Shown: positions 5,080 through 40,597 of the stretch, one piece after another | Numbering within the stretch: position 1 is the first letter of the stretch | Layout of the letters: each line of letters begins with the position of its first letter | Assembly: GCA_017463935.1 (NCBI GenBank) | Contig: JAFUEM010000058.1 | Location: 1-41,166, forward strand | From: Kiritimatiellia bacterium | GTDB taxonomy: Bacteria; Verrucomicrobiota; Kiritimatiellia; RFP12; UBA1067 | DNA length: 41,166 nucleotides | Reading direction: 5' to 3' | Translations under genes and position numbers: made by a program | The notes under the pieces: model-generated | What the model was told of the DNA's origin: nothing | Database searches by the model: none | Seen by the model: the letters and a program-made list of their open reading frames with translations, nothing else

Positions 5080-5402
5080 CGCGCAAATGCGGAGTGTGCC
5101 CGCCGTGGACGCAGACCGTGTGCCGGCATGCGTTCGGGAAATTCTGGGACGTGAAGTCGCGGAACGGCGAGGGGTGCGACCATCCGCTCGACGGCGTGGC
5201 GGAGGCATGGCGCGAGGCGGGATGGACGCCCGACAAGGGGGCGACGAAAACCATCACGCTCCCCCTTCCGTCCAGGCCGAAGATGCCGCGCCGCCCGGTG
5301 CGTCCTACTGTAAAAAAGATACAGTCGCCAGCACCCGCGAGGCCGAAGGTTTCGGCCGAGATAATGCGCCAGGCGGATCTCTTTTTCGGGAGGATGAAAT
5401 GA
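5076..5402 (+). CDS. Small Cys-rich protein with proline-rich PVRPT tail
   Basis: The 108-residue product begins with a Cys/His-rich segment (CGVCPPWTQTVCRHAFGKFW, residues 5-24, with a further Cys-Asp-His about ten residues on) that could bind zinc. It ends with a basic proline-rich region RRPVRPTVKKIQSPAPARP. That region is encoded by a 47-bp sequence nearly identical to one in the ParB-domain gene at 365. GGAGG lies just before the ATG, and an upstream in-frame start (4968) lies inside the methyltransferase and is rejected. The function is unknown. A zinc module with a proline-rich tether looks like an adaptor for protein-protein contacts, which is an inference. Confidence 0.65.
   Translation: MTRKCGVCPPWTQTVCRHAFGKFWDVKSRNGEGCDHPLDGVAEAWREAGWTPDKGATKTITLPLPSRPKMPRRPVRPTVKKIQSPAPARPKVSAEIMRQADLFFGRMK
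5298..5344 (+). repeat. 47-bp repeat in coding sequence, copy 2
   Basis: The second copy lies in the small Cys-rich gene at 5076 and encodes the same peptide. The internal dyad is at 5307-5325. The copies are 4.2 kb apart in direct orientation. Confidence 0.85.
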
Positions 5403-6190
5403 AGCGGACGGAACCAGTGCCGAGGTCCGAATGGCAGGAGCACTACGGCGCGTTCAAGAAGATGCTGCCGACCGTATCGAACGCCCATTCACCGAGCGAC
5501 ATATTCCGCGACGTGTGCCGCATCTTCTCGCTGTCCCTGCGCGGGGCCGTGACGGTTGACAAGACGGAGAGGGACGGCATCGAGAGCATGTACGCATCTC
5601 TCGCCGGAAAGTACGGGCCGGGCGGCATGGAGAAGGTCGGCGCGATGTTCGCCCATCTCGTCGAGGCGATGGAGCTGAAGCGGAGCGACTTCCTCGGGCA
5701 CGTGTACGAAGAACTGAACGCGACCGTAAAGAGTTTTGGCCAGTTCTTCACGCCTGACTGCGTATCGCGGATGATGGCGCGCATGACATTTTCGGCGCGT
5801 CCGGAACCCGGAAAGGTGGTGACGATGAACGACTGCGCGTGCGGCGCCGGCGCGCTTCTCATCGAGGGCGCGGAGGCGTTCGTCGGATGCGGCGGACGGC
5901 AGGGGGACATCCTGATCTACGCCGAAGATCTGGACGCCACGGCGTGTTGCATCGCGTACACGCAGCTTTCGCTTCTGGGATATCCGGCGATCGTACACCA
6001 CATGGACAGCCTCAGCCGGAAGGTGTACGAGGGGCCGTGGTTCACGGTCGGGTATTTTCTGCACGGGATGCCGATGCGGAGAGTTCACTCAAAAGGCGTG
6101 GTCGCAGAGCGGCCGCGCAATGAAGTCAAGAACGAGCCGAAGCCGATAGACGTACGCAAACTCGCGCAGGCGGAGTTCGACTTCGGCTGA
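5399..6190 (+). CDS. HsdM-like N6 DNA methyltransferase without visible NPPY motif
   Basis: The 263-residue protein resembles the catalytic core of type I restriction methylases. GQFFTP at 114-119 and the SAM-binding loop NDCACGAGALL at 144-154 are clear. AEDLDATAC (about 174-182) and LSLLGYPAIV, preceding MDSLSR, match the second strand and the region before motif IV. In active enzymes an (N/D)PP(Y/F) motif should follow; here the sequence runs on as KVYEGPWFTVGYFLHG with no such motif. The protein may therefore bind SAM and DNA without methylating adenine, or use a divergent motif. It belongs to a group of compact phage HsdM-like proteins often found near other methyltransferases. It starts at the ATGA overlap with the previous gene. 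Confidence 0.75.
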   Translation: MKRTEPVPRSEWQEHYGAFKKMLPTVSNAHSPSDIFRDVCRIFSLSLRGAVTVDKTERDGIESMYASLAGKYGPGGMEKVGAMFAHLVEAMELKRSDFLGHVYEELNATVKSFGQFFTPDCVSRMMARMTFSARPEPGKVVTMNDCACGAGALLIEGAEAFVGCGGRQGDILIYAEDLDATACCIAYTQLSLLGYPAIVHHMDSLSRKVYEGPWFTVGYFLHGMPMRRVHSKGVVAERPRNEVKNEPKPIDVRKLAQAEFDFG

Positions 6191-6698: not shown

Positions 6699-6883
6699 AC
6701 AAGGCGACGATAATTCTGGCGGTCAACGTTGCGATCCTCGCAGTCGTGGTGCTGTGTCTTTCGCACCGCATCACCGCGCTGGAGCGCAGGGCGATGGACT
6801 ACGACTACCACTTCGGCTACAAGTCGAGGTTTCCGTACGTCGGGCTGTTCGGAGTGTTCGAGAAAGACGGAGGCGCGAAATGA
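6695..6883 (+). CDS. Small single-pass membrane protein
   Basis: The 62-residue product has one hydrophobic segment (IILAVNVAILAVVVLCLS, about 6-23), a short amphipathic helix ITALERR, and an aromatic, charged C-terminus. It starts at the ATGA overlap with the preceding small gene, with GGGAGGC as ribosome site. It ends in an overlap with the C5 methyltransferase start. It is early rather than lysis-located, so a holin role is unlikely. No family is recognised. Confidence 0.6.
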   Translation: MNKATIILAVNVAILAVVVLCLSHRITALERRAMDYDYHFGYKSRFPYVGLFGVFEKDGGAK

Positions 6884-8442
6884 AACGCCCGATAGTTTTC
6901 CTCGACCTGTACTGCGGCGCGGGAGGGTTCTCGACGGGGTTTGCCGAGGCGATGAAAGACCTCGGCCTGACGTTCCGCGAGATCGCGATAAACCACTGGT
7001 TCCGTGCGGTCGAGACGATGCGCGCAAACCATCCGGGGGTGTACGCGATGCAGATGGACATCGACGCAGCGACGCCGGACGACATCGAGGCGGACGTGAT
7101 AGACCACCTTCACGCCTCGCCGTCCTGTACCCACCACTCCAGGGCGAAGGGAGGCAAGCCGAGGTCGAACCAGCTCCGGTCGCAGCCGAACGAGATCTGG
7201 AAGTTCGTGGACAACAAGCACGTCCGCTGGATAACCATCGAGAACGTGCCCGAGTTCACGAAGTGGGGGCCGCTCACCCGCAAGGGCAAGCCGATCAAGC
7301 GCATGGAGGGATCGTGCTTCCGGGCGTGGCTGGCGCAGTTCACGGCGCGTGGCTACGACTACGAATATCGCATACTCAACTGCGCGGACTACGGCGACGC
7401 CACGAGCCGGAAGCGGTTCTTCCTGATCGCGGTCAAGCGCGGATGCGGGAAGATTCGCTGGCCGAAGCCGACGCACGCCGAGGTTCCGGGGAACGGGCTG
7501 AAGCGGTGGCGCGGCGTGGACGAGTGCCTGGACTACGCGGACATGGGACACTCGATCTTCGACCCGAAGTACCCGCTCGTGCAGAACACCCTTCGCCGCG
7601 TGGCCGTCGGTCTGCGGAAATACTGCGGCATCGCCTTTCAAATGGATTTGCTGGATACTGGCGGCAAAGACAACTGCCGGTTGCGATCGCTTGACGAACC
7701 GCTTTTTGCGCAGCCAACATGGAACCGCACCATGATCGTGCGCCCGTTCCTCGTGAAGTTGAACAACCACGCCACGGTCGAGGACGTAGCCGACCCGCTG
7801 ACGACCGTCACCACGTCCGGCAACCACCACGCGCTGTGTACGCCGTTCGTGGTGAAGATGAGGAACAACCAGGACTGCGCGTCCGTGGACGATCCGCTGT
7901 CCACGATATCCTGCTCCGGAGCCCACCACGAACTGTGCCAGCCGATAATCGTGGAAATCTCCAACAACGGCAAGGCGCGAAGGATCAAGAAGCCGCTCGG
8001 AACGCAGACGACGAAAGACCATTTCGCGCTCGTGAGGTCTTTCGTCCTCGGCCAGCAGGGAGGCGCGGCGCTCCGTCCCGACGGCGAGCCGTGCCCGACC
8101 GTTGCGACCGGCGGAGCCATCCGCAAGGTGGATGCCGTCATACTCGACATGAGCCGTCCGGCGGGGCCGGACTCCGGGCACGTCCGATCGTCGAAGGAGC
8201 CGATGCGGACGATCACGACGTACGACAACGTGCAGGGAGTGTTCGCCCTTCTGGAGGACGGGCGGCTGCTGGACGTGCGGATAAGGATGCTCAAGCCGAG
8301 CGAGCTGGCCGCCGCCCATTCGTTCCCGAAGGACTACAGGCTTTCGGGAAGCAGGGCGGACCAGGTGAAGCAGATCGGAAACTCGGTGCCCGTGAGGACG
8401 GCGAAGGCCATCGTGAAGGCGATATTCGGAAAGGCCGCGTAA
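6880..8442 (+). CDS. DNA (cytosine-5) methyltransferase
   Basis: The 520-residue enzyme has all key C5-MTase motifs. Motif I is DLYCGAGGFSTGF (9-21); the catalytic Cys83 is in the variant SPSCTHHS; the ENV motif is at 121-123; DYGDATSRKRFFLIA stands for motif VIII; and motif X is QIGNSVPVRTAKAI (498-511). The PSC-HHS variant of the usual PCQ loop is common in phage-encoded enzymes. Between about residues 280 and 470 the target-recognition region contains a degenerate tandem repeat of roughly 40 residues, with cores DPLTTVTTSGNHHAL, DPLSTISCSGAHHEL, KPLGTQTTKDHFAL, EPCPTVATGGA and EPMRTITTYDN. No partner restriction enzyme is present, so self-protection of phage DNA is likely. It could also supply 5-methylcytosine for further modification. 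ATGA overlap with the preceding gene. Confidence 0.93.
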   Translation: MKRPIVFLDLYCGAGGFSTGFAEAMKDLGLTFREIAINHWFRAVETMRANHPGVYAMQMDIDAATPDDIEADVIDHLHASPSCTHHSRAKGGKPRSNQLRSQPNEIWKFVDNKHVRWITIENVPEFTKWGPLTRKGKPIKRMEGSCFRAWLAQFTARGYDYEYRILNCADYGDATSRKRFFLIAVKRGCGKIRWPKPTHAEVPGNGLKRWRGVDECLDYADMGHSIFDPKYPLVQNTLRRVAVGLRKYCGIAFQMDLLDTGGKDNCRLRSLDEPLFAQPTWNRTMIVRPFLVKLNNHATVEDVADPLTTVTTSGNHHALCTPFVVKMRNNQDCASVDDPLSTISCSGAHHELCQPIIVEISNNGKARRIKKPLGTQTTKDHFALVRSFVLGQQGGAALRPDGEPCPTVATGGAIRKVDAVILDMSRPAGPDSGHVRSSKEPMRTITTYDNVQGVFALLEDGRLLDVRIRMLKPSELAAAHSFPKDYRLSGSRADQVKQIGNSVPVRTAKAIVKAIFGKAA

Positions 8443-10770: not shown

Positions 10771-10999
10771 TATATATCGCCAAGGCCCGGTTGTCAAGTT
10801 ATTTGAAGCGCCAGCGCGTCCGCAGGCCCGCTCCACGGCGTCCGAATGTTTTGGACGTGTGATTGCACGCATGGCTAAAAGAACGCGCAGACGGCGGATT
10901 TCGGGGCTTGCGCGGCATGGTCGCGTCCGGGGTAGGTACTCCCGAAGGGGGAGCACCCCGGCCTATGCCCAAGGCGCGAGGTCTCGAAAAAAAATGTAG
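10760..10999 (+). CDS. Possible small basic protein
   Basis: The 79-codon frame overlaps the end of the preceding gene and encodes a highly basic product (RMAKRTRRRRISGL, RVRGRYSRRG, ending RSRKKM). It spans a strong hairpin at 10927-10961. High Arg content is typical of spurious frames in GC-rich DNA, and the ribosome site is weak. It is listed because otherwise the 10771-11030 gap holds no gene. A competing frame upstream of 11031 (from 10863) is also possible but less likely. Confidence 0.25.
   Translation: MMRNIYRQGPVVKLFEAPARPQARSTASECFGRVIARMAKRTRRRRISGLARHGRVRGRYSRRGSTPAYAQGARSRKKM
10927..10961 (+). other. Strong two-part hairpin between early and late modules
   Basis: An outer stem CCGGGGT/ACCCCGG (10927-10933 with 10955-10961) encloses an inner stem CTCCC/GGGAG (10939-10943 with 10949-10953). 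There is no T tract after it, so it is not a simple intrinsic terminator. It sits between the last early gene and the ParB-domain gene that opens the next module. It could be an RNA control element or a protein-binding structure. Confidence 0.5.
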
Positions 11000-11030: not shown

Positions 11031-11873
11031 ATGCGGAAAAAGACGAAGGCGGGATCGGCCCTGCCGGAGGTGAAGGCCGGCGAAAACGGCGGGATAGCCA
11101 TCGCAGAGGGCGTTGCGCGGGTGGATCTGTCCACCCTTCGCGAGAACCCGAACAACCCGCAGAAGGTTGTGGAGTCGGAGTTCGAGTGCCTGCGCGACTC
11201 GATGCGGAGGCTGCACCGCTTCCTGAAGGACCGCCCCATGCTCGTCGAGGCCGACGGCATGGTGAAGTGCGGAAACAAGCGGCTGAGGGCTCTGAAGGCG
11301 AACGGGGTGCGGTTCGTGCCCGCCGAGTACGTGAGGATATTTTCCGACTACACTCCCGAGGAGGTGGCCGAGTTCATCCTTCAGGACAACCTTCACCGCG
11401 GGGTGTGGGATGCCGAGAAGCTGCTGGCGCAGTACGACGCGGACACTCTGAGAGCGCTCGGCTCCGAGTTCGACGACCTGATCGCGGAGTTCGCGGCCAA
11501 GGGAGCGGAGAGCGACTTCGAGTATTCGTCGAAGATTGAGGCGCCGCAGTACAACATCACGGGCGAGAATCCTTCTCTTGACGAGCTGTGCGACACGGAA
11601 AAGGCCGACGAGCTGGCGAAGGAGGTGGAAGCGGCGGACATCCCGAAGGACGTCAAGCGGTTCCTGAAGGTGGCGGCGATGCGGCACGTCGTGTTCGACT
11701 TCAGGAACATAGCCGAATACTACGCGCACGCCGACGCGAAGGTGCAGCGGCTGATGGAGAAGTCGGCGCTGGTGATAATCGACTTCGAGGACGCGATAAG
11801 GAACGGCTTCGTCATCGTGTCGGAGAAGATGGCCGCTCTGCGCGGCATGGAGGGCGGCGATGATGCGGAGTGA
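11031..11873 (+). CDS. ParB-nuclease-domain protein, glycosyltransferase-associated type
   Basis: The 280-residue product carries a ParB/Spo0J-like N-terminal domain at about 27-110, with VDLSTLRENPNNPQ (31-44), CGNKRLRALKANG (80-92), and the typical EFILQDNLHRGVWD stretch (about 118-131). After an acidic linker, a second conserved region contains SLDELCDTEKADELAKEV and FLKVAAMRHVVFDFRNIAEYY. The same two-part architecture occurs in phages beside TET-associated glycosyltransferases. GAGGAGG lies seven bases before the ATG at 11031, so the longer frame from 10863 is rejected. Its last 14 bases overlap the glycosyltransferase gene, implying tight coupling. The biochemical role in DNA modification, possibly targeting or nicking, is not established. 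Confidence 0.78.
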   Translation: MRKKTKAGSALPEVKAGENGGIAIAEGVARVDLSTLRENPNNPQKVVESEFECLRDSMRRLHRFLKDRPMLVEADGMVKCGNKRLRALKANGVRFVPAEYVRIFSDYTPEEVAEFILQDNLHRGVWDAEKLLAQYDADTLRALGSEFDDLIAEFAAKGAESDFEYSSKIEAPQYNITGENPSLDELCDTEKADELAKEVEAADIPKDVKRFLKVAAMRHVVFDFRNIAEYYAHADAKVQRLMEKSALVIIDFEDAIRNGFVIVSEKMAALRGMEGGDDAE

Positions 11874-12750
11874 CTTCTGCGTGTTCATACTGACGCACGG
11901 ACGCGCCGACAACGTGTTGACCGCCCGGACGCTGAAGAAGGAGGGCTACACCGGGCGGACGTACTTCGTGATAGACGACCAGGACGAACAGGCCGACCGA
12001 TACCGCGAGAACTTCGGGGCCGAGAACGTGCTGGTCTTCGACAAGGCGAAGTGGGCGGCGCGGGTGGACACGATGGAGAATCGCGGGAAGATGAACGGCG
12101 TCGTGTTCGCCCGGAACGCCGTCTGGGAGATCGCGCGGAAGGTAGGCGTGAAATACTTCTGCGTTCTCGATGACGACTACAAGCAGTTCTGCTTCCGCTG
12201 GAGGAACGGCGAGAAGCTGGACTGGGCGGACTGCTCCGACCTCGATTCGGTGTTCTCCGCGATGGCCGACTTCCTGATCGCGTCCGGAGCGGACACGGTG
12301 GCGATGGCGCAGGCCGGCGACTTCGTGGGCGGGATAGGTTCGACAGCCGCCGGGCATCCGCTTCTGCGCAAGGCGATGAACGTGTTTTTCTTCCGCGCGG
12401 ACCGGTCGTGCAGCTTCGTCGGGATGACGAACGAGGACGTCAACATGTACGTGCTGGCGAATCTCCGCGGCCGTCTGATCCTGACTCTGACTTCCGTGAT
12501 GATCGTCCAGATGGTGACGCAGACGAACAGCGGAGGGTTGACGGACATATACCTTCAGGACGGGACATACGTAAAGAGTTTCTACAGCGTGATGTGCGCT
12601 CCGTCGTGCGTGAAGATTTCCATGCTGCACGGCGGGACGAAGGACACCGCGCAGCACTGGCGGATCCACCACCACGTGAAGTGGAATAACTGCGCTCCGA
12701 AGATTCTCAGCGAGAAGTGGCGGAAGCGCGGAAAGCGCGCGAGGGGGTAG
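11860..12750 (+). CDS. TET-associated-type DNA glycosyltransferase candidate
   Basis: The 296-residue protein has a GT-A-like layout. The N-terminal CVFILTHGRADNVLTARTLK (7-26) is the nucleotide-sugar side, and the metal-binding acidic motif VLDDDYKQF lies at 102-110. Conserved VVFARNAVWEIA precedes the acidic motif, and GMTNEDVNM plus a His-rich segment (WRIHHHVKW) lie nearer the C-terminus. This matches the phage family known as TET-associated glycosyltransferases, which attach sugars to oxidised 5-methylcytosine in hypermodified phage DNA. The 14-base overlap with the ParB-domain gene and the C5 methyltransferase upstream are the expected companions. No TET/JBP dioxygenase is seen in this window; it may lie to the left. 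Start at 11860 (MM) or 11863. Family recognition is from memory of motifs and should be confirmed. Confidence 0.72.
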   Translation: MMRSDFCVFILTHGRADNVLTARTLKKEGYTGRTYFVIDDQDEQADRYRENFGAENVLVFDKAKWAARVDTMENRGKMNGVVFARNAVWEIARKVGVKYFCVLDDDYKQFCFRWRNGEKLDWADCSDLDSVFSAMADFLIASGADTVAMAQAGDFVGGIGSTAAGHPLLRKAMNVFFFRADRSCSFVGMTNEDVNMYVLANLRGRLILTLTSVMIVQMVTQTNSGGLTDIYLQDGTYVKSFYSVMCAPSCVKISMLHGGTKDTAQHWRIHHHVKWNNCAPKILSEKWRKRGKRARG

Positions 12751-12757
12751 TCGCTGA

Positions 12758-14908
12758 ATGGCGGTCGCGGAGACAGCAAAGGTCGAGGCGTTGGCGGCGC
12801 AGGGGCTGTCGCGGGTCGAGATCCGCGGACTGCTCCGCCGCGACCTTCTGCCGGAGGAGGTTCGGGCTGTGGCGGCTGGACGTGGCGTGTGGAAGCTGAA
12901 GGAGGCGAGGCGCAAGGAGGCGAAGGGCGAGGCGAAGTCCGGCGCCGAGAGGATGCGGGACATGCGCGCGAAAGAGGGTGCGCTGGAGAGGCGGGAGCCC
13001 GAGGACGCGGCGAGGCGAAAGCGGCTGGAGAAAGACCCGGAGAAGTGGCTGCGGTGGTACTTCCCGAATGTCTTCACCCTTCCCTTCTCGGATGGCCACC
13101 GCGAGATAATCCGCGCCATCGTTTCGAACGACTCGCAGGGCAGGGACACCGTGGTGGCGGCCCCCCGCGGCGAAGGCAAGACGAACATCATGCGCTACAT
13201 GACGATATACCTCGTCGTTACCAAGCGCGCGAAGTTCCCGGCCATGGGAGGATGGCAGAGCCGGTCGGCGTCGGAGGCGTTTTCGACATGGGTGATAGCG
13301 ATCACCTCGGAGCGGCTTGTCGCGGACTATCCCGAATACTTCGCGCCCTTCGCCGTGTCCACCCACGCGAACCGGCTGCCGCGCCTCCACTGGCAGGGCG
13401 AGGACAGGCCGACCGGCGCGGCGATAAAGTCGAAGCTGATGCAGATCGTCTTCCCGGACGGACTCGGCGCGATCGCGGCCGGATCCCTCCAGGGCGACGT
13501 CAAGGGCCTGAACATCACGACGGCGGACGGCTTGTCGCTCCGTCCCGACAAGCTGCTCCTCGACGACCCGCAGGACGTCAAGCGCGCGGCAGACCCGAAA
13601 TTCGTGGCCGACACGCTGAAGCAGATAGACACGCAGTGGCAATGCCTGGCAGGGCCGGACAAACGCATTTCGATGATGGTGGCTTGCACCATCTATGCGC
13701 CTGACGACGTGGGCGAATCCCTCGGCAAGAGGCGCAACACGGTCTTCGTGCGGATCCCGCGCGTCACATCGTGGCCGGTTGGCTTCGAGAAGGCGGAGTC
13801 GTTGACGCGCCAGCTGTGGGACAGATGGTTCGACCTGTACGACGACGACAAGACACGGGACATGGCTTTCAGGTTCTACCGGCAGAACCGCGCCGCGATG
13901 ACGAACGGCTTCACGGTCTCGTGGAAGTACCGCTTCGACAGGTCGAAGGGAGACCCGGACGCGCTGTTCAGCGCGATGGTGGACTACTACACAAAAGGTC
14001 GCGAGGCGTTCTTTTCGGAGTACCAGAACCAGCCCGTAGCGCACGAGACGAAATACTACGAGCTGACGCCGCAGTGCATCCTCAAGCACCAGATCGAGCT
14101 GCACGAGAACGAGGTGCCGGAGGATACCGTCTTCGCCTCGCTGTCCACTGACATCAACTACTCCTACGGTCTGACCTACGAGGCGGCGGCATTTACTCGC
14201 TCCGGCACCTGCCACGTCTTCGCCAAGGGCGTGTGGTGCCAGGAGCCGCTTCCGATCTCGGCCAAGAACACGAACATAGAGCAGAGGCAAAGGCTCGTCA
14301 AGAAGGCGCTGGAGATCATGGCGGAGTGGGTGGACGTGCAGCCGTGGAAGTTGGACGTCTGGTACATCGACGCCGGCGGCGAGCAGTTCGACACGGTGAC
14401 GAACTTCTGCCGGAAGGCGAAGAAGAACGGCAAGCTGGGCCGCGCCATGATAGGCCGCGCCGGAAAGACCTACGACCCGTCGGTGAAGACGTGCGTCGGA
14501 CGGGTGCGCGGCAGGGTGTACGCCTGCTTCACCCGCGAGAGCGGCAAGTGGTACTGCATGGACGCGGACTACTACAAGGAGCTGGCGCAGACCTCGTGGA
14601 TCACCCCCGAGGGCGAGCCGGGCAGCTCGACGATATACAAGGGCTCGCACCGCGACTACGCCGACCAGATGTGCCGCGAGGTGCTGGAGGCCAAGGGCGT
14701 CATCATGGGGCGCGGAGGCCGGACGATGGTGGTGTACAAGTGGAACACCCTTCCGGGCAAGCACGACCACCTCGACACCCACACGATGAACTACGCCGCG
14801 GCGGGGTACGAGGGGGTGCTGTCGATGTCGGCGGAGTCGGACACCGGCTCTCAGGGCGCGGGCGGCAACGTCCCGAAGAAAAACAGGAGGAAGGTCTATC
14901 ATGGCTAA
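12758..14908 (+). CDS. terL: Terminase large subunit
   Basis: The 716-residue motor protein has an ATPase domain with Walker A APRGEGKT (135-142) and Walker B LLLDDPQD (about 264-271). Its RNase H-like nuclease domain has acidic residues in SLSTDINYS (about 461-469), YIDAGG (about 535-540) and HDHLDTH (about 669-675). The roughly 90-residue N-terminal extension (AAQGLSRVEIRGLLRRDLLP) is helix-turn-helix-like and may replace a small subunit, since no separate small terminase gene is seen next to it. It cuts and pumps DNA into the prohead. Its stop overlaps the zinc-ribbon gene start. The last codons (KNRRKVY) are repeated at the start of the next protein. Confidence 0.92.
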   Translation: MAVAETAKVEALAAQGLSRVEIRGLLRRDLLPEEVRAVAAGRGVWKLKEARRKEAKGEAKSGAERMRDMRAKEGALERREPEDAARRKRLEKDPEKWLRWYFPNVFTLPFSDGHREIIRAIVSNDSQGRDTVVAAPRGEGKTNIMRYMTIYLVVTKRAKFPAMGGWQSRSASEAFSTWVIAITSERLVADYPEYFAPFAVSTHANRLPRLHWQGEDRPTGAAIKSKLMQIVFPDGLGAIAAGSLQGDVKGLNITTADGLSLRPDKLLLDDPQDVKRAADPKFVADTLKQIDTQWQCLAGPDKRISMMVACTIYAPDDVGESLGKRRNTVFVRIPRVTSWPVGFEKAESLTRQLWDRWFDLYDDDKTRDMAFRFYRQNRAAMTNGFTVSWKYRFDRSKGDPDALFSAMVDYYTKGREAFFSEYQNQPVAHETKYYELTPQCILKHQIELHENEVPEDTVFASLSTDINYSYGLTYEAAAFTRSGTCHVFAKGVWCQEPLPISAKNTNIEQRQRLVKKALEIMAEWVDVQPWKLDVWYIDAGGEQFDTVTNFCRKAKKNGKLGRAMIGRAGKTYDPSVKTCVGRVRGRVYACFTRESGKWYCMDADYYKELAQTSWITPEGEPGSSTIYKGSHRDYADQMCREVLEAKGVIMGRGGRTMVVYKWNTLPGKHDHLDTHTMNYAAAGYEGVLSMSAESDTGSQGAGGNVPKKNRRKVYHG

Positions 14909-17085: not shown

Positions 17086-17117
17086 CGGACAGTCCAAACA
17101 TGGAGGAATGAAACATG
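17082..17117 (+). promoter_or_regulatory. TTGACGG...TGGAGGA gene-junction block, copy 1
   Basis: TTGACGGACAGTCCAAACA is followed by TGGAGGAA and then the ATG at 17115. The portal stop codon TGA is bases 2-4 of the block. Three related blocks occur at 25452, 30085 and 35332, each with the ATG 32-34 bases after the first T. The block combines a stop codon, a conserved GGTCC-type middle and the ribosome site. Confidence 0.65.
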
Positions 17118-19016
17118 CCACCTGAAAAGATAGCAGAACTCATGAAGAAGCCGCTCGTCGCGACGGGCGTTGTCTCTCTCGTCGCCGAGAAGGACGCCGA
17201 GGGCAAGCCCGTGGAGGGCAACAAGAAGATGACGATCACCGCCTACAACGGCGGGATGATGAAAGTCGGCTGGGGCTACCCGGTCGGCATCGAGTTGTCC
17301 GGCCTGAAGTGGCGCGAGGACAACGCCGTGCCGATCCTGTGCCAGCACAAGACGTATTCGATCGACGCGATCTGCGGACAGGCGACGAAGGTGTCGCACG
17401 ACGGGAAGACGCTCACCATCGACGCGGACTTCATGCCCGTGTCGCAGGACGCGAAGAAGGTGCACGAGCTGGCGAAGGCCGGCTTCAAGTTCCAGGCGTC
17501 CGTGGGTGTGTCCGCGAGCGACGTCATCTTCATCGAGGCGAATCAGTCCTACAAGCTGAACGGCGCCGAGGTCAAGGGCGAGTGCTACATCGTCCGCGCA
17601 GGCGTCCTGAATGAAGTTTCCATCGTCCCGCTGGGGGCCGATGGCTCAACCCAGACGGCGATCTCCGCCGCCGCTAACCAAGGAAAGGAGGGCGTAATGC
17701 CCGAAGACAAGAACAAGCCGGTGGAGGGCGCACAGCCTGCCGCCGCAACCGTGGAGGCGGCGCAGACCGCAGAGCGCGAGCGCGTCGCTTCCCTCATCAC
17801 CGCGTGCAAGGGGCACGAGGACATCCTGGCTCAGGCCGTCAAGGAGGGATGGACCGCCGAAAAGGCGGAGCTGGCCTGCCTCAAGGCCGAGAAGGAGGAA
17901 GCTGAGAAGGCGAAGAAGCAGGCCGCGATCGAGGCGTCGCGCCCCGGCGCGCCCGCCATCATCAACCTTCAGGCTTCCGCGTCGCACGACGCCAAGACCG
18001 TCGTCGCCGCCGCCTGCATGGGCGCCGCGATGAAGGACAAGGATCTGGAGGCGCAGTGCAAGGGCGTCGACCTCGACGCGGCGCACGACCTCAAGATCAC
18101 CCGCCTCAGCGACATCTTCGCCGCGTTCGGCATCCAGTACCGTCCGGGCGACAACGAGAGCATGGAGAAGGCGCTCCGCGCCGCGTTCTCGAACGCGAAC
18201 ATCCCGAACGTCCTATCCAACGTCGCGCACAAGTTCGTGATGGCCGGATTCGGCGCAGTGGGCGACGACTGGCGCAAGGTGTCCCGTCCCGTCTCGGTCG
18301 TGGACTTCAAGGAGGTCAAGGGCGTGCGTCTCGTCATGGGCGGGGTGCTGAAGCCGCTCGCCAAGGGCGGCGAACTCCAGCATGTCGATCTTTCGGACGA
18401 CACGCGCGCGCTCAAGGCCGCGACGAAGGGGTCCATCGTGGGCATTACCCGCGAAGACCTCGTCAACGACGACCTTTCCGTCCTCTCGCTCGTCCCGGAG
18501 CGCTTCGGCCAGATGTCCGGCCGCACCATCAACAAGGACGTGTTCGGCAAGATCTCGACGACCGCTTCCGACTACGGCGCGAACACCACGGGCGCGCTTT
18601 CGCTCGACGCCCTCGCCGCCGCGTATGCGCTGGCGATGACGATCAAGGACGGCCAGGGCGATCCGCTCGGCACGCTCCCCGACAAGATTCTCTGCTCGCC
18701 GTCGAGCTTCATTCTCGCGAAGGGAATCTACCAGTCGGAGCACATCGTGAACGGAGCCGGCAAGAGCGCGCGCGACAACGTGATGCGCAACATGCTGGAG
18801 CCGGTCACGTCGCCGTACCTCTCGGGCACGACCTACTGGCTGTTCAACTCGACGTTCCCGCTTGTGGACGTCGCGTTCCTGAACGGACGGCAGACGCCCG
18901 TCATCGAGACGGCCGACGTGGACTTCACCCAGCTCGGGATCCAGATGCGCTGCTACTTCGACTACGGCCCGAGCAAGGGCGAGACGAAGGCGGCGCTCAT
19001 CTCGACCGGCGCGTAA
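17115..19016 (+). CDS. Fused prohead protease and major capsid protein
   Basis: The 633-residue protein has an N-terminal HK97/S78-type prohead protease domain. Candidate catalytic residues are His78 in VPILCQHKT and Ser129 in FQASVGVSA, and the family motif LNEVSIVPLGAD lies at about 168-179. A charged Ala/Glu-rich scaffold-like region covers about 195-275 (AEKEEAEKAKKQAA), and the major capsid domain fills the rest (RLVMGGVLKPLAKGGEL, ITREDLVNDDLSVL). A nested start at 17697 can make the scaffold-capsid part alone. The fused protease should cleave the scaffold region during maturation. GGAGGA seven bases upstream sets the 17115 start. Confidence 0.88.
   Translation: MPPEKIAELMKKPLVATGVVSLVAEKDAEGKPVEGNKKMTITAYNGGMMKVGWGYPVGIELSGLKWREDNAVPILCQHKTYSIDAICGQATKVSHDGKTLTIDADFMPVSQDAKKVHELAKAGFKFQASVGVSASDVIFIEANQSYKLNGAEVKGECYIVRAGVLNEVSIVPLGADGSTQTAISAAANQGKEGVMPEDKNKPVEGAQPAAATVEAAQTAERERVASLITACKGHEDILAQAVKEGWTAEKAELACLKAEKEEAEKAKKQAAIEASRPGAPAIINLQASASHDAKTVVAAACMGAAMKDKDLEAQCKGVDLDAAHDLKITRLSDIFAAFGIQYRPGDNESMEKALRAAFSNANIPNVLSNVAHKFVMAGFGAVGDDWRKVSRPVSVVDFKEVKGVRLVMGGVLKPLAKGGELQHVDLSDDTRALKAATKGSIVGITREDLVNDDLSVLSLVPERFGQMSGRTINKDVFGKISTTASDYGANTTGALSLDALAAAYALAMTIKDGQGDPLGTLPDKILCSPSSFILAKGIYQSEHIVNGAGKSARDNVMRNMLEPVTSPYLSGTTYWLFNSTFPLVDVAFLNGRQTPVIETADVDFTQLGIQMRCYFDYGPSKGETKAALISTGA
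17697..19016 (+). CDS. Nested start: major capsid protein without protease
   Basis: An in-frame ATG at 17697 (residue 195 of the fusion) is preceded by AAAGGAGGGCGTA, the best ribosome site in the head region, inside a coding sequence. It would yield a 439-residue scaffold-capsid protein starting MPEDKNKP. Nested genes of this type are known for lambda C/Nu3 and other phages, and they solve the need for many more capsid than protease subunits. Independent initiation is inferred from the ribosome site. Confidence 0.6.
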   Translation: MPEDKNKPVEGAQPAAATVEAAQTAERERVASLITACKGHEDILAQAVKEGWTAEKAELACLKAEKEEAEKAKKQAAIEASRPGAPAIINLQASASHDAKTVVAAACMGAAMKDKDLEAQCKGVDLDAAHDLKITRLSDIFAAFGIQYRPGDNESMEKALRAAFSNANIPNVLSNVAHKFVMAGFGAVGDDWRKVSRPVSVVDFKEVKGVRLVMGGVLKPLAKGGELQHVDLSDDTRALKAATKGSIVGITREDLVNDDLSVLSLVPERFGQMSGRTINKDVFGKISTTASDYGANTTGALSLDALAAAYALAMTIKDGQGDPLGTLPDKILCSPSSFILAKGIYQSEHIVNGAGKSARDNVMRNMLEPVTSPYLSGTTYWLFNSTFPLVDVAFLNGRQTPVIETADVDFTQLGIQMRCYFDYGPSKGETKAALISTGA

Positions 19017-37850: not shown

Positions 37851-37910
37851 ACGGTTTTTCGCGGAACCCTTATTTTACAGGGGTTATATTATATCATAAT
37901 TTGCTCGTCA
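37851..37910. other. Putative attachment site region and composition break
   Basis: Between the integrase leader and the LRR gene the sequence turns from GC-rich to AT-rich. The leucine-rich-repeat reading frame is cut in the middle of a repeat, after SVTS: the codons for GTGACGAGCA continue as AATTATGATATAA on the minus strand. This is what insertion of a prophage into the LRR gene would leave at its right junction. The core att sequence cannot be fixed without the left junction. Confidence 0.45.
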
Positions 37911-39087
37911 CGCTATCTGGAATCACTACACTAGTCAAGTTCCTGCAATAATAAAACGCATCCAACCCTATGCTCGTCACGCCGATACTAAATGTTATAT
38001 TCGTAAGTCCATAACATTGCCGAAAGGCATAATCCCCAATACTCGTGACGCTGGCGGGAATCGTCACACTCGTCAAATTCGTGCAGAGATAAAACGCCCA
38101 GCTATCAATGCTCATCACGCCGTCAGGTATCGTCACATCTCTGGAAACACCACTTATGAGCTTTTTACCATCCTTTGTTAGCAGTAGTCCCGAGACGGAT
38201 TTATAGGCGGAGTTTCGTTCGTCAACTATAAATTGCTCCATGCTGTTGCAACCATCAAACACCTCACTTCCAATGCTCGTCAGACCTCGCCCTATCATCA
38301 CACTCGTCAGCCCACTGCAAAACGAAAACGCATTATCCCCGATACTTATCACGCCATCCGGAATTGTAATGCTCGAAAGACCAGTGCATGCGTAAAATGC
38401 CCGATACCCTATGTTCGTCACCGCGTCAGGCATTTTCACGAGCGTCAGAGTGTCACATCTTTCAAAGGCACAGCTTCCAATGCTTATCACACTGTTAGGA
38501 ATCAACACACTCGTCAATCTCCTACAACTTGCAAATGCAGAATCGCTAATGCTTTTCACGCCAGCAGGAATCGTAACATCTCCATTGATACCATAGATGA
38601 GCGTTTTCCCATCCTTTGTCAACAGAAGTCCCGACACGGACTTGTAGGCAGAGTTTTGTTCGTCTACGGCAAAGGACTCAATGCCACTCCCATAAAATAC
38701 CGAAGACCCGATCTCGACCACGCCAGAACCAAATGCTACGTGCGTCAGCGAACTGCAACCCCTGAAGGCATAATCTTCAATACTAGTCACACTGGCCGGG
38801 ATTGTCAAACTTACCATCTCTCGACAACTATAAAACGCATACCTAGCAATTTTTGTCACAGGATAACCACCAAGCACGGACGGGATTTCAATCGCACCTA
38901 CCACAGACCGTGGCATGGCAGGAAAGGATTGTGACCCACCTCCAATTGACGCTTTCCCATTTGAGACAGTATATGTCCATGTAATTCCATTGACGGTTTC
39001 TGTATGTGTTGTGTCTGCATTGGAGCCCAAAGCCATCACCAAAATGACGCTGCAAATACAAATTCTCAAGATTCGGAAAGTGTTCAT
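37894..39087 (-). CDS. BspA-type leucine-rich-repeat surface protein, probably truncated by the prophage
   Basis: The 397-residue product begins with a Sec signal (NTFRILRICICSVILVMALG). At least ten BspA/LRR_5-type repeats of about 23 residues follow (pattern LTSVTIPxSVTSIGxxAFxxC; two longer units contain NSAYKSVSGLLLTKDGK). It ends abruptly as VVIPDSVTSKL, within a repeat, at the phage junction. AAGGAAGG before the ATG at 39087 is the ribosome site; a TTG start at 39105 is unlikely. BspA proteins are surface adhesins of gut and oral bacteria. DNA composition is AT-richer than the prophage. Confidence 0.82.
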   Translation of the reverse strand: MNTFRILRICICSVILVMALGSNADTTHTETVNGITWTYTVSNGKASIGGGSQSFPAMPRSVVGAIEIPSVLGGYPVTKIARYAFYSCREMVSLTIPASVTSIEDYAFRGCSSLTHVAFGSGVVEIGSSVFYGSGIESFAVDEQNSAYKSVSGLLLTKDGKTLIYGINGDVTIPAGVKSISDSAFASCRRLTSVLIPNSVISIGSCAFERCDTLTLVKMPDAVTNIGYRAFYACTGLSSITIPDGVISIGDNAFSFCSGLTSVMIGRGLTSIGSEVFDGCNSMEQFIVDERNSAYKSVSGLLLTKDGKKLISGVSRDVTIPDGVMSIDSWAFYLCTNLTSVTIPASVTSIGDYAFRQCYGLTNITFSIGVTSIGLDAFYYCRNLTSVVIPDSVTSKL

Positions 39088-39101
39088 TGAAATCCTTCCT
39101 T

Positions 39102-39800
39102 TCAATAATGTTTGATGATGGTTGCAAAGTCATGTTTTTTTGTTATAGCACGCAATGCGGCACACTCATCGTCTTCTACAGAAGCAACACACACCATGAA
39201 GACAAAGCGCTTCTTCAATTCAGGAACAAAACCATCATAAGCTTTCTGCACGTCATCGAAGACTCGTTCCCAATTACGATGTCCTATAACGTTGCAAATC
39301 TCAATACCATATAGGCACTTACCATATTCCATGACAGCATCAAAATAATATGTCGAGACTCCTATTGATCTACGCTCGAAGACAGGAACGCCATACTCTT
39401 TTTGCAATCTTTCTATCCATTGATGCTCGCAAAATGATGCGGCGTTCGGAATTATTTGTGGCCCTGATAGTGTATCCCCATTCACACAATTCTTGAACTC
39501 ATCGCTGCTATCATCGTCCTCGTCTCCAATACGTTTCATGCCTTCCTGTTGGGGCAAAAAGACAACACTTCCATTACCCAGACTTGAACGACTTACAAGA
39601 CCAGGCAATTCCGTAAGGACCTTAATCACACTGTCACGAAATATTGCAATGCAAATCCCTGCGAAGATCGGCCAGGAAGCATGCTCGATCACTGCTTTCC
39701 CAATATCGGAAGGGAACAGATAGCTCAACACAGCTAGAAAAGCCAGAATAACCAAGGCAAAGGCCGCTATACTTTTTATCGATTTTTGACGTTCTGACAT
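39102..39800 (-). CDS. Two-helix membrane protein with possible nuclease-like domain
   Basis: From the ATG at 39800 (AAAAAGGA upstream) the product has 232 residues; a GTG at 39836 would add 12. Two hydrophobic helices lie at about 10-29 and 43-55. A soluble domain follows with YYFDAVMEYGKCLYGIEIC, giving D154 and E167 spaced like a PD-(D/E)XK site but with Cys at the Lys position. The FDDVQKAYDGFVPELKKRFV helix and FMVCVAS strand also fit such a fold. The gene follows the HEPN/CBS gene closely on the same strand, implying an operon. A membrane-anchored nuclease-like effector is possible but unproven. AT-rich, as in islands. Confidence 0.5.
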   Translation of the reverse strand: MSERQKSIKSIAAFALVILAFLAVLSYLFPSDIGKAVIEHASWPIFAGICIAIFRDSVIKVLTELPGLVSRSSLGNGSVVFLPQQEGMKRIGDEDDDSSDEFKNCVNGDTLSGPQIIPNAASFCEHQWIERLQKEYGVPVFERRSIGVSTYYFDAVMEYGKCLYGIEICNVIGHRNWERVFDDVQKAYDGFVPELKKRFVFMVCVASVEDDECAALRAITKKHDFATIIKHY

Positions 39801-39835
39801 ATGTAATCCTTTTTCTAAAACTTCTTTCCTCTTCA

Positions 39836-40597
39836 CTAACTTATACCGCGCGAAAGATTTTCCTCAATAGTTTTCGCAGAGCAATTAAATGATGTTGCCA
39901 TGTCGGAAACTCCCGCGACATCCCAGACAGTAAGGATGCCGAGCAACGGTTCATCCACTTTCCCATTCTCTGTCACAAAGAACATGCCGATGCGTTCGTG
40001 CTTCTGCAATGCTTCAGCGCAAAGATGTCGAATGTGAGCGACGGAATCATTCTTAGGCACAAATCTGAACACCTCAGCCGTGTGCCTGTTGCACGGCAGA
40101 AATTCAGCAACAGCTTTCAAAGTTGTCTTGCCATCGTCGGGAATTCCCGCCTTGTTCATCTCAAGCATCGTGCTTTCGCTGAACACGCCAAGAACCTTGT
40201 CTTCAGAATCAAGAACTGGAACATGCGAATAAACATTCGTCAGCATATCACCGACAACTGTTGAAATTGGGTCATCCAGCGAACCAAAGTAAACTTCGCT
40301 TCGCGGAATCCAAATGTTAGACACCATTGGGAGTTTCTTCAGACGCGCAATCACTTCATCAAGGAATGAAACAACTCCCGCATTGACTGTCACAATCGGA
40401 TTTCCGTTTAGCAGCGGGTTGTGCGTCAGAGCGTTTCTCACATAACGCAAGGCCATAAGCCGAGTGAAGTCGACACCTTCCACATGCATCTTCTTCAAGA
40501 ACTTCTCAACCTCCTTGCCATCCCATGTCGGGAATGCAATACGAGTGGCCGATTCAAGCTCTTTCCACCTTTCAGCGAACAATGCTTCTGTCGTCAT
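39836..40597 (-). CDS. HEPN-motif plus CBS-domain protein
   Basis: The 253-residue product has an N-terminal helical region with RYVRNALTH (51-59). This contains R54-N-A-L-T-H59, the R-x4-H signature of HEPN ribonuclease/toxin domains. A pair of CBS domains follows at about 95-250 (TNVYSHVPVLDSEDKVLGVF, then RIGMFFVTENGKVDEPLLGI and LTVWDVAGV). CBS pairs bind adenine nucleotides or related ligands. The combination suggests a nucleotide-gated sensor or toxin. It is cotranscribed with the membrane protein downstream. Family identity is read from motifs only. Confidence 0.55.
   Translation of the reverse strand: MTTEALFAERWKELESATRIAFPTWDGKEVEKFLKKMHVEGVDFTRLMALRYVRNALTHNPLLNGNPIVTVNAGVVSFLDEVIARLKKLPMVSNIWIPRSEVYFGSLDDPISTVVGDMLTNVYSHVPVLDSEDKVLGVFSESTMLEMNKAGIPDDGKTTLKAVAEFLPCNRHTAEVFRFVPKNDSVAHIRHLCAEALQKHERIGMFFVTENGKVDEPLLGILTVWDVAGVSDMATSFNCSAKTIEENLSRGIS

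Follow-up and report, generated by a model that had tools for sequence, protein, structure and literature searches.

In the window, by which we mean the whole stretch of DNA analysed (the entire 41,166-base contig, C262, of a 2.79 Mb assembly in 354 contigs), two overlapping genes encode a ParB-fold protein and a TET-associated glycosyltransferase (TAGT), and this pair rather probably constitutes a dedicated two-protein glycosyltransferase module that is independent of TET and carries an exchangeable DNA tether. Judging from sequence comparisons, the constant partner of the TAGT is the C-terminal tail domain of the neighbouring protein, not its ParB domain. TAGT and tail would form the working unit, which the N-terminal part of the partner would hold on DNA. 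In small phages such as that of the window, the tether would be a ParB CTPase-fold clamp and the module would lie by the terminase; in large phages with a replisome of their own, the tether would be a short sliding-clamp-binding peptide and the module would lie by the clamp gene.

The gene pair in the window

Both ORFs, their overlap and the DDDY at residues 104-107 of the TAGT were found where the initial annotation had placed them, on inspection of ORF coordinates and translation (Table 1). The two ORFs have 14 bases in common, the terminase ORF begins 8 bases past the TAGT ORF, and GC3 is 0.87-0.88 for the ParB-like and TAGT ORFs alike. The ParB-like ORF starts with an ATG that is preceded by GAGGAGG; a longer ORF, with a TTG start at 10863, runs in the same frame. 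The contig has no terminal repeat, and its right end carries minus-strand genes for a BspA-type LRR protein and a CBS-domain protein (37894-40597); given their strand and position, these genes are possibly host flank, which would make the phage an integrated prophage. Other ORFs of the window include an N6-methyltransferase-like protein (5396-6190; PF02384, 43.5 bits; PHROG 5696), a match to Dam (PF05869) among the 42 scanned, and a likely fusion of prohead protease and major capsid protein (17115-19016; NF045541, 207 bits, under the cut-off of 525).

Table 1. The gene pair and associated features of the window
Feature	Position	Strand	Basis
ParB-fold tether protein (putative) with C-terminal tail domain, 280 aa	11031..11873	+	PHROG 620, model, alignment
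TAGT, predicted GT-A glycosyltransferase, 296 aa	11860..12750	+	PF20691, PHROG 842, model
Terminase large subunit (gpA-like), next gene, marks packaging neighbourhood	12758..14908	+	Family matches
C5-cytosine DNA methyltransferase, probably outside the module	6874..8442	+	PF00145, 112.3 bits

The TAGT enzyme

The second product belongs to the TAGT family, as had been proposed, scoring 142.8 bits against Pfam PF20691 (cut-off 27.5; profile positions 3-205 of 205) and 217.5 bits against PHROG 842. It carries DxD at 104-106, xED at 191-193 and a C-terminal His at 270/271, the motifs of GT-A enzymes. D105, D106, N191, D193, K239, R268, H270 and H271 are present in all 108 aligned TAGT homologues, D104 in 102 and E192 in 95 of the 108. 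The AlphaFold model (pLDDT 92, pTM 0.89) finds its structural matches in GT-A glycosyltransferases, polypeptide GalNAc-transferases among them, with a best Z of about 13 over about 200 residues; by sequence, no close solved structure was retrieved, the best PDB matches being designed TIM barrels at E 0.003 or worse. By its sequence motifs, the TAGT is predicted to be a metal-dependent GT-A enzyme. No TAGT was detected in 72,556 plasmid records. Some loci (L047, L060, L014, L016, L019, L021 and L039) hold two or three TAGT genes in tandem, perhaps for the build-up of a longer glycan.

The ParB-fold protein and its tail domain

The first product consists of an N-domain (about 28-124) and an all-helical C-terminal tail (about 165-260), joined by a linker whose structure is predicted weakly. 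The ParB domain assigned to it by the initial annotation is corroborated by PHROG 620 (70.5 bits) and by the AlphaFold N-domain, which superposes on ParB-CTPgammaS (7bnr_A) with a Z of 10.9 and an rmsd of 2.5 over 88 residues; the N-domain, as modelled, has the ParB-CTPase fold. No Pfam family exceeds its cut-off with this protein, and the canonical ParB partition protein (TIGR00180) reaches 12.3 bits, under the curated cut-off of 58.45; the window's ParB form is known as sequence and model (model pTM 0.55). The nucleotide-box residues N42, G81 and N120 occur in 98/98 homologues and R84 in 83/98, the window included, and the domain may well bind nucleotide. In the tail, P172, R218, Y231, Q239, E243 and D251 are likewise found in all 98. 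A comparison of the tail with 214 Foldseek-ranked PDB chains gave no convincing match (best Z 2.9), which does not in itself imply a new fold. Among the loci examined, no natural fusion of tail and TAGT was found.

Recurrence of the pair and its neighbourhoods

Overlapping or abutting ParB and TAGT genes near a terminase are also met in unrelated phages, namely Lactobacillus phages c5 and jlb1, haloarchaeal HHTV-2, Nocardia NTR1, a Porphyromonas phage and a Rac-type E. coli prophage; in Nocardia NTR1 both genes are annotated as hypothetical proteins, and the ParB was identified by alignment. In IMG/VR, a tail ORF adjoins the TAGT in 75 of 80 TAGT loci, and a TAGT adjoins the ParB in 79 of 80 ParB loci, both counts including near-duplicate loci and the latter, from the best 80 of 595 in a scan seeded with TAGT-adjacent ParBs, being biased towards pairing. 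Of the five TAGT loci that lack an adjoining tail, four contain a tail ORF elsewhere in the locus and the fifth ends at a contig edge. In both nearest relatives of the window there is a second ParB-like ORF, L205:4111-5721 and L202:3900-5462 (minus), that of L205 lying about 15 kb left of the pair, beyond the range of the window.

Within 5 kb downstream, the terminase large subunit (TerL) is encoded in 31 of the 41 TAGT-set loci that could be decided and in 47 of 49 for the ParB set (after dereplication the sets number 48 and 51 loci, of which 7 and 2 are too short to decide), and of the ten loci without TerL in the first set, eight are of the tail-only kind described below. Beyond terminase- and portal-like genes, no widely recurring gene was found in 89 full-length ParB loci, with clusters judged partly by sequence appearance.

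Of 5426 E. coli genomes, 1572 gave a match and 885 contain 80% or more of the pair; K-12 strains are left with just the first 254 bases of ynaK. In Lactobacillus phage LL-Ku, ORF1 (L177:90-938) is an in-frame deletion that fuses the ParB start to a truncated TAGT, and phage Ld25A keeps only a remnant of the module; both are natural loss mutants, from which it follows that the module is dispensable.

Tail-only forms and the sliding clamp

Large phages lack the ParB domain; there, the tail forms a protein of its own, usually 120-150 aa long, that adjoins the TAGT. In the first set, 10 of 11 such tail-only proteins have LF within their first 16 residues, that of Vibrio pv27 being without it; rows at contig ends (L020, L025, L059 and L093) were left out of the set, as was L048, which is labelled tail-only in the tree. 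A targeted scan gave 86 tail-only ORFs, of which 22 were removed because they were duplicates or were cut by a contig end; of the remaining 64, 48 have LF close to the N-terminus (41 of 57 minus the 7 rows from first-set contigs), with a small bias from ranking against a query that itself starts MSQLF. Among other N-termini of the same loci the count was 47 of 523, and among full-length ParBs 0 of 87; the Fisher value for the enrichment, computed ignoring relatedness, is 4e-30. The beta-clamp-binding motif has been described as Q-phi-x-[LM]-[FL] (PMC11139829); the exact motif occurs in 7 of the 64 and just [LM]F in 43.

The neighbourhoods of the tail-only genes include replication genes. Of the 11 tail-only records, 7 contain a DnaN-type clamp (PHROG 947) by family search (two of the records, L084 and L085, are near-copies), as against none of 29 others, and a sliding-clamp gene lies within 3 kb of the tail-only gene in 45 of 64 cases, a proximity of which the compact replication cluster of large phages may be the sole cause. 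A family-A DNA polymerase is present in 59 of 80 tail-only loci (for example, L239:948-3254). These polymerases start with MPLF or MALF, a candidate N-terminal clamp-binding peptide; a polymerase accompanies 44 tail rows in the same locus, and its N-terminus shows L[FIW] in 42 of them and LF in 34, while in L263, LI replaces LF in polymerase and tail protein alike. On the simplest reading of these sequences, polymerase and tail protein would bind one clamp. In 17 of 80 tail-only loci (L218:7122-7580 and relatives), a cytidylyltransferase-like gene, related to heptose-1-phosphate adenylyltransferases, lies near the TAGT and may hint at the sugar donor.

These forms bear on two other accounts of the pair. 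It is highly improbable that the pair is a packaging factor whose function is its adjacency to the terminase, with no modification enzyme involved: TerL does lie downstream in most full-length ParB loci, but the tail-only forms are mostly not by the terminase but in replication clusters, the catalytic motifs are conserved, and the module can decay (LL-Ku) or persist as a remnant (Ld25A). The other holds that the acceptor is a protein (the tail of the partner, the terminase or the capsid) and that the ParB merely positions the TAGT. Y165 and Y174, conserved inside the weakly predicted linker, would suit such an acceptor, as would the GalNAc-transferases among the GT-A matches and the annotation of certain E. 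coli homologues (hits H186-H225) as 'GREB1-related protein'; animal GREB1, presumably a TAGT relative, reportedly glycosylates a receptor. The ParB fold and the clamp-binding-like peptide, however, both point to DNA, and we regard a protein acceptor as unlikely.

Phylogeny of the TAGTs

In a tree of 122 TAGTs, six TET-linked sequences are set apart by a branch 8.35 changes per column long (support 100), three T4-like ones have their own branch (support 90), and the window TAGT sits among 112 ParB- or tail-linked rows (support 98). Tail-only rows are scattered over the tree, from which two long rows were left out, and its well-supported branches force at least four changes, rows not listed as tail-only being taken as full-length by default. 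Over 95 dereplicated loci, pairwise TAGT distances correlate better with those of the tail (r 0.62) than with those of the ParB domain (r 0.37), and bootstrapping puts the difference at 0.09-0.34. We infer that tail and TAGT bind each other.

The question of TET and the acceptor

The initial annotation had likened the pair to modules that hypermodify cytosine after a C5-methyltransferase and a TET/JBP dioxygenase, and had supposed that the dioxygenase lies left of the window or that a different base is glycosylated. The methyltransferase is indeed in the window, and the lack of a visible dioxygenase is borne out by a Tet_JBP search of the whole source assembly and by an HMM built on actinophage TETs, which has no match in the window ORFs or the nearest relatives. 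No oxygenase was recognised by Pfam among 42 further window ORFs, and the search on the window contig spans 11 kb left of the pair, beyond which a TET could lie. The dioxygenase to the left was rejected as a candidate: neither the assembly nor the two records of the nearest relatives have Tet_JBP, and the contig of a close relative, which continues leftwards for about 8 kb past the limit of the window, holds no TET by Pfam or by the actinophage-TET HMM. A TET left of the window is unlikely, given that the pair recurs without Tet_JBP and that the window TAGT falls in the ParB/tail clade, far from TET-linked TAGTs.

Across phages, a single one of 49 TAGT-bearing records has Tet_JBP, that of mycobacteriophage Baee, whose TAGT is distantly related; the counts are 0 of 24 for large tail-only records, with Baee added as positive control, and 0 of 387 genomes phylum-wide, searched without a positive control. 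Genes 1-3 of Baee are ParB, a TET-like protein and TAGT, and the TET, which is the only positive control for this family, scores 21.9 bits, under the family cut-off of 34.9, so that the Pfam search is rather insensitive to phage TETs and a divergent one could escape it. The actinophage-TET HMM has only 20 ORF matches, every one in actinophage-type loci. Such TET-like proteins (Baee gene 2, L172:819-1697 and relatives) are publicly annotated as queuine tRNA-ribosyltransferase or oxidoreductase. In phage c5 (33 CDS), no oxygenase is among 25 of 69 Pfam families listed, and a weak match elsewhere is possible.

A cytosine route, in which the C5-methyltransferase makes 5mC, an off-contig TET oxidises it and the TAGT glycosylates the resulting 5hmC, is very unlikely. 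It would account for the methyltransferase in the window and in the records of both nearest relatives, and actinophages do have clusters of TAGT, TET and ParB; against it stand the rarity of Tet_JBP, the separate branch of the TET-linked TAGTs and the occurrence of a C5-methyltransferase (PF00145) in only 3 of 49 TAGT-bearing records, two of them those nearest relatives. The methyltransferase is probably incidental to the module, and membership in a cytosine module of this kind does not hold up; a different base is the better of the two options that the initial annotation had offered.

Nor do known families account for the acceptor hydroxyl otherwise: a thymidylate-synthase/dCMP-hydroxymethylase fold was found in 2 of 50 records, both of large phages, and a thymidylate-synthase-type enzyme in none of 25 further searches, 24 of them of tail-only records. 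As no recognised base-hydroxylation route is general in TAGT phages, either new chemistry is at work or the hydroxyl comes from an unrecognised enzyme. On the two-protein, tethered module favoured here, the sugar would most likely be added to phage DNA during replication or packaging, and it would serve as a shield against host nucleases. More tentatively, TAGT and tail could be self-sufficient for DNA glycosylation, with no TET, dCMP hydroxymethylase or primary glucosyltransferase and with delivery by interchangeable clamps, ParB-type or replisome; an ordinary base would then be sugared directly, or the helical tail, a small and strongly conserved domain, would supply the acceptor group. If DNA is truly glycosylated without any known base hydroxylase, this would be new DNA chemistry. 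The usual lack of TET in close relatives of the pair makes the sugar target of these phages a testable question, for which existing material includes L. delbrueckii phage c5, with the module intact, to set against LL-Ku with its truncated fusion, and Rac-type prophages of wild E. coli to set against the K-12 remnant.

Comparison with known systems

TAGTs without alpha-GT or beta-GT are already known, having been counted in 288 of 753 phage genomes and termed potentially novel transferases in a 2026 study (PMC13216743), as are phage ParB-fold fusions; here, such TAGTs gain a partner in the tail domain, along with a clade and a proposed mode of tethering. A weak check of openly licensed (CC0/CC BY/CC BY-SA) literature retrieved no description of ParB with TAGT, TAGT with terminase, the tail partnership or the exchange of ParB and clamp; the available portions of the HHTV-2 relatives paper (PMC8651126) make no mention of glycosyl or ParB. 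The surveyed fusions join the ParB-CTPase fold to other domains, often methyltransferases, in prophages (Kaljevic 2025, PMC12704722). The window protein resembles them in joining this fold to another domain; in the available text of that survey, 'glycosyl' occurs once, and neither TAGT pairing nor the tail domain was found.

The actinophage clusters exemplified by Baee are presumably the TET/JBP-TAGT systems that Iyer 2013 and Burke 2021 describe. Like the window, they have a ParB-fold protein and a TAGT near the terminase; unlike it, they have a TET, a divergent TAGT and a ParB without the tail domain.

The T6 beta-glucosyl-HMC-alpha-glucosyltransferase is a member of the TAGT family, PF20691 and PHROG 842 (PMC13216743, PMC13390438), and is assigned to add a second sugar to a glucosylated base (PMC13216743). 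It has the Pfam family, GT-A fold and phage DNA context in common with the window TAGT, whereas nearly all relatives of the latter occur without alpha-GT, beta-GT or the dCMP-hydroxymethylase fold, and T4-like TAGTs are extended by about 105 aa at the N-terminus, lack a tail partner and branch separately. That the window TAGT likewise extends an already glucosylated base would agree with the common family and with the tandem TAGTs of some loci, but it is extremely unlikely, as alpha-GT and beta-GT were each found in 0 of 49 records (with no control that scored) and the T4-like TAGTs branch apart. For the tethered module itself, T4 alpha-glucosyltransferase, which binds the sliding clamp gp45, provides a precedent of clamp-tethered DNA glycosylation (PMC13216743); that enzyme has a GT-B fold and binds the clamp directly, whereas here the putative link would be a separate adaptor protein.
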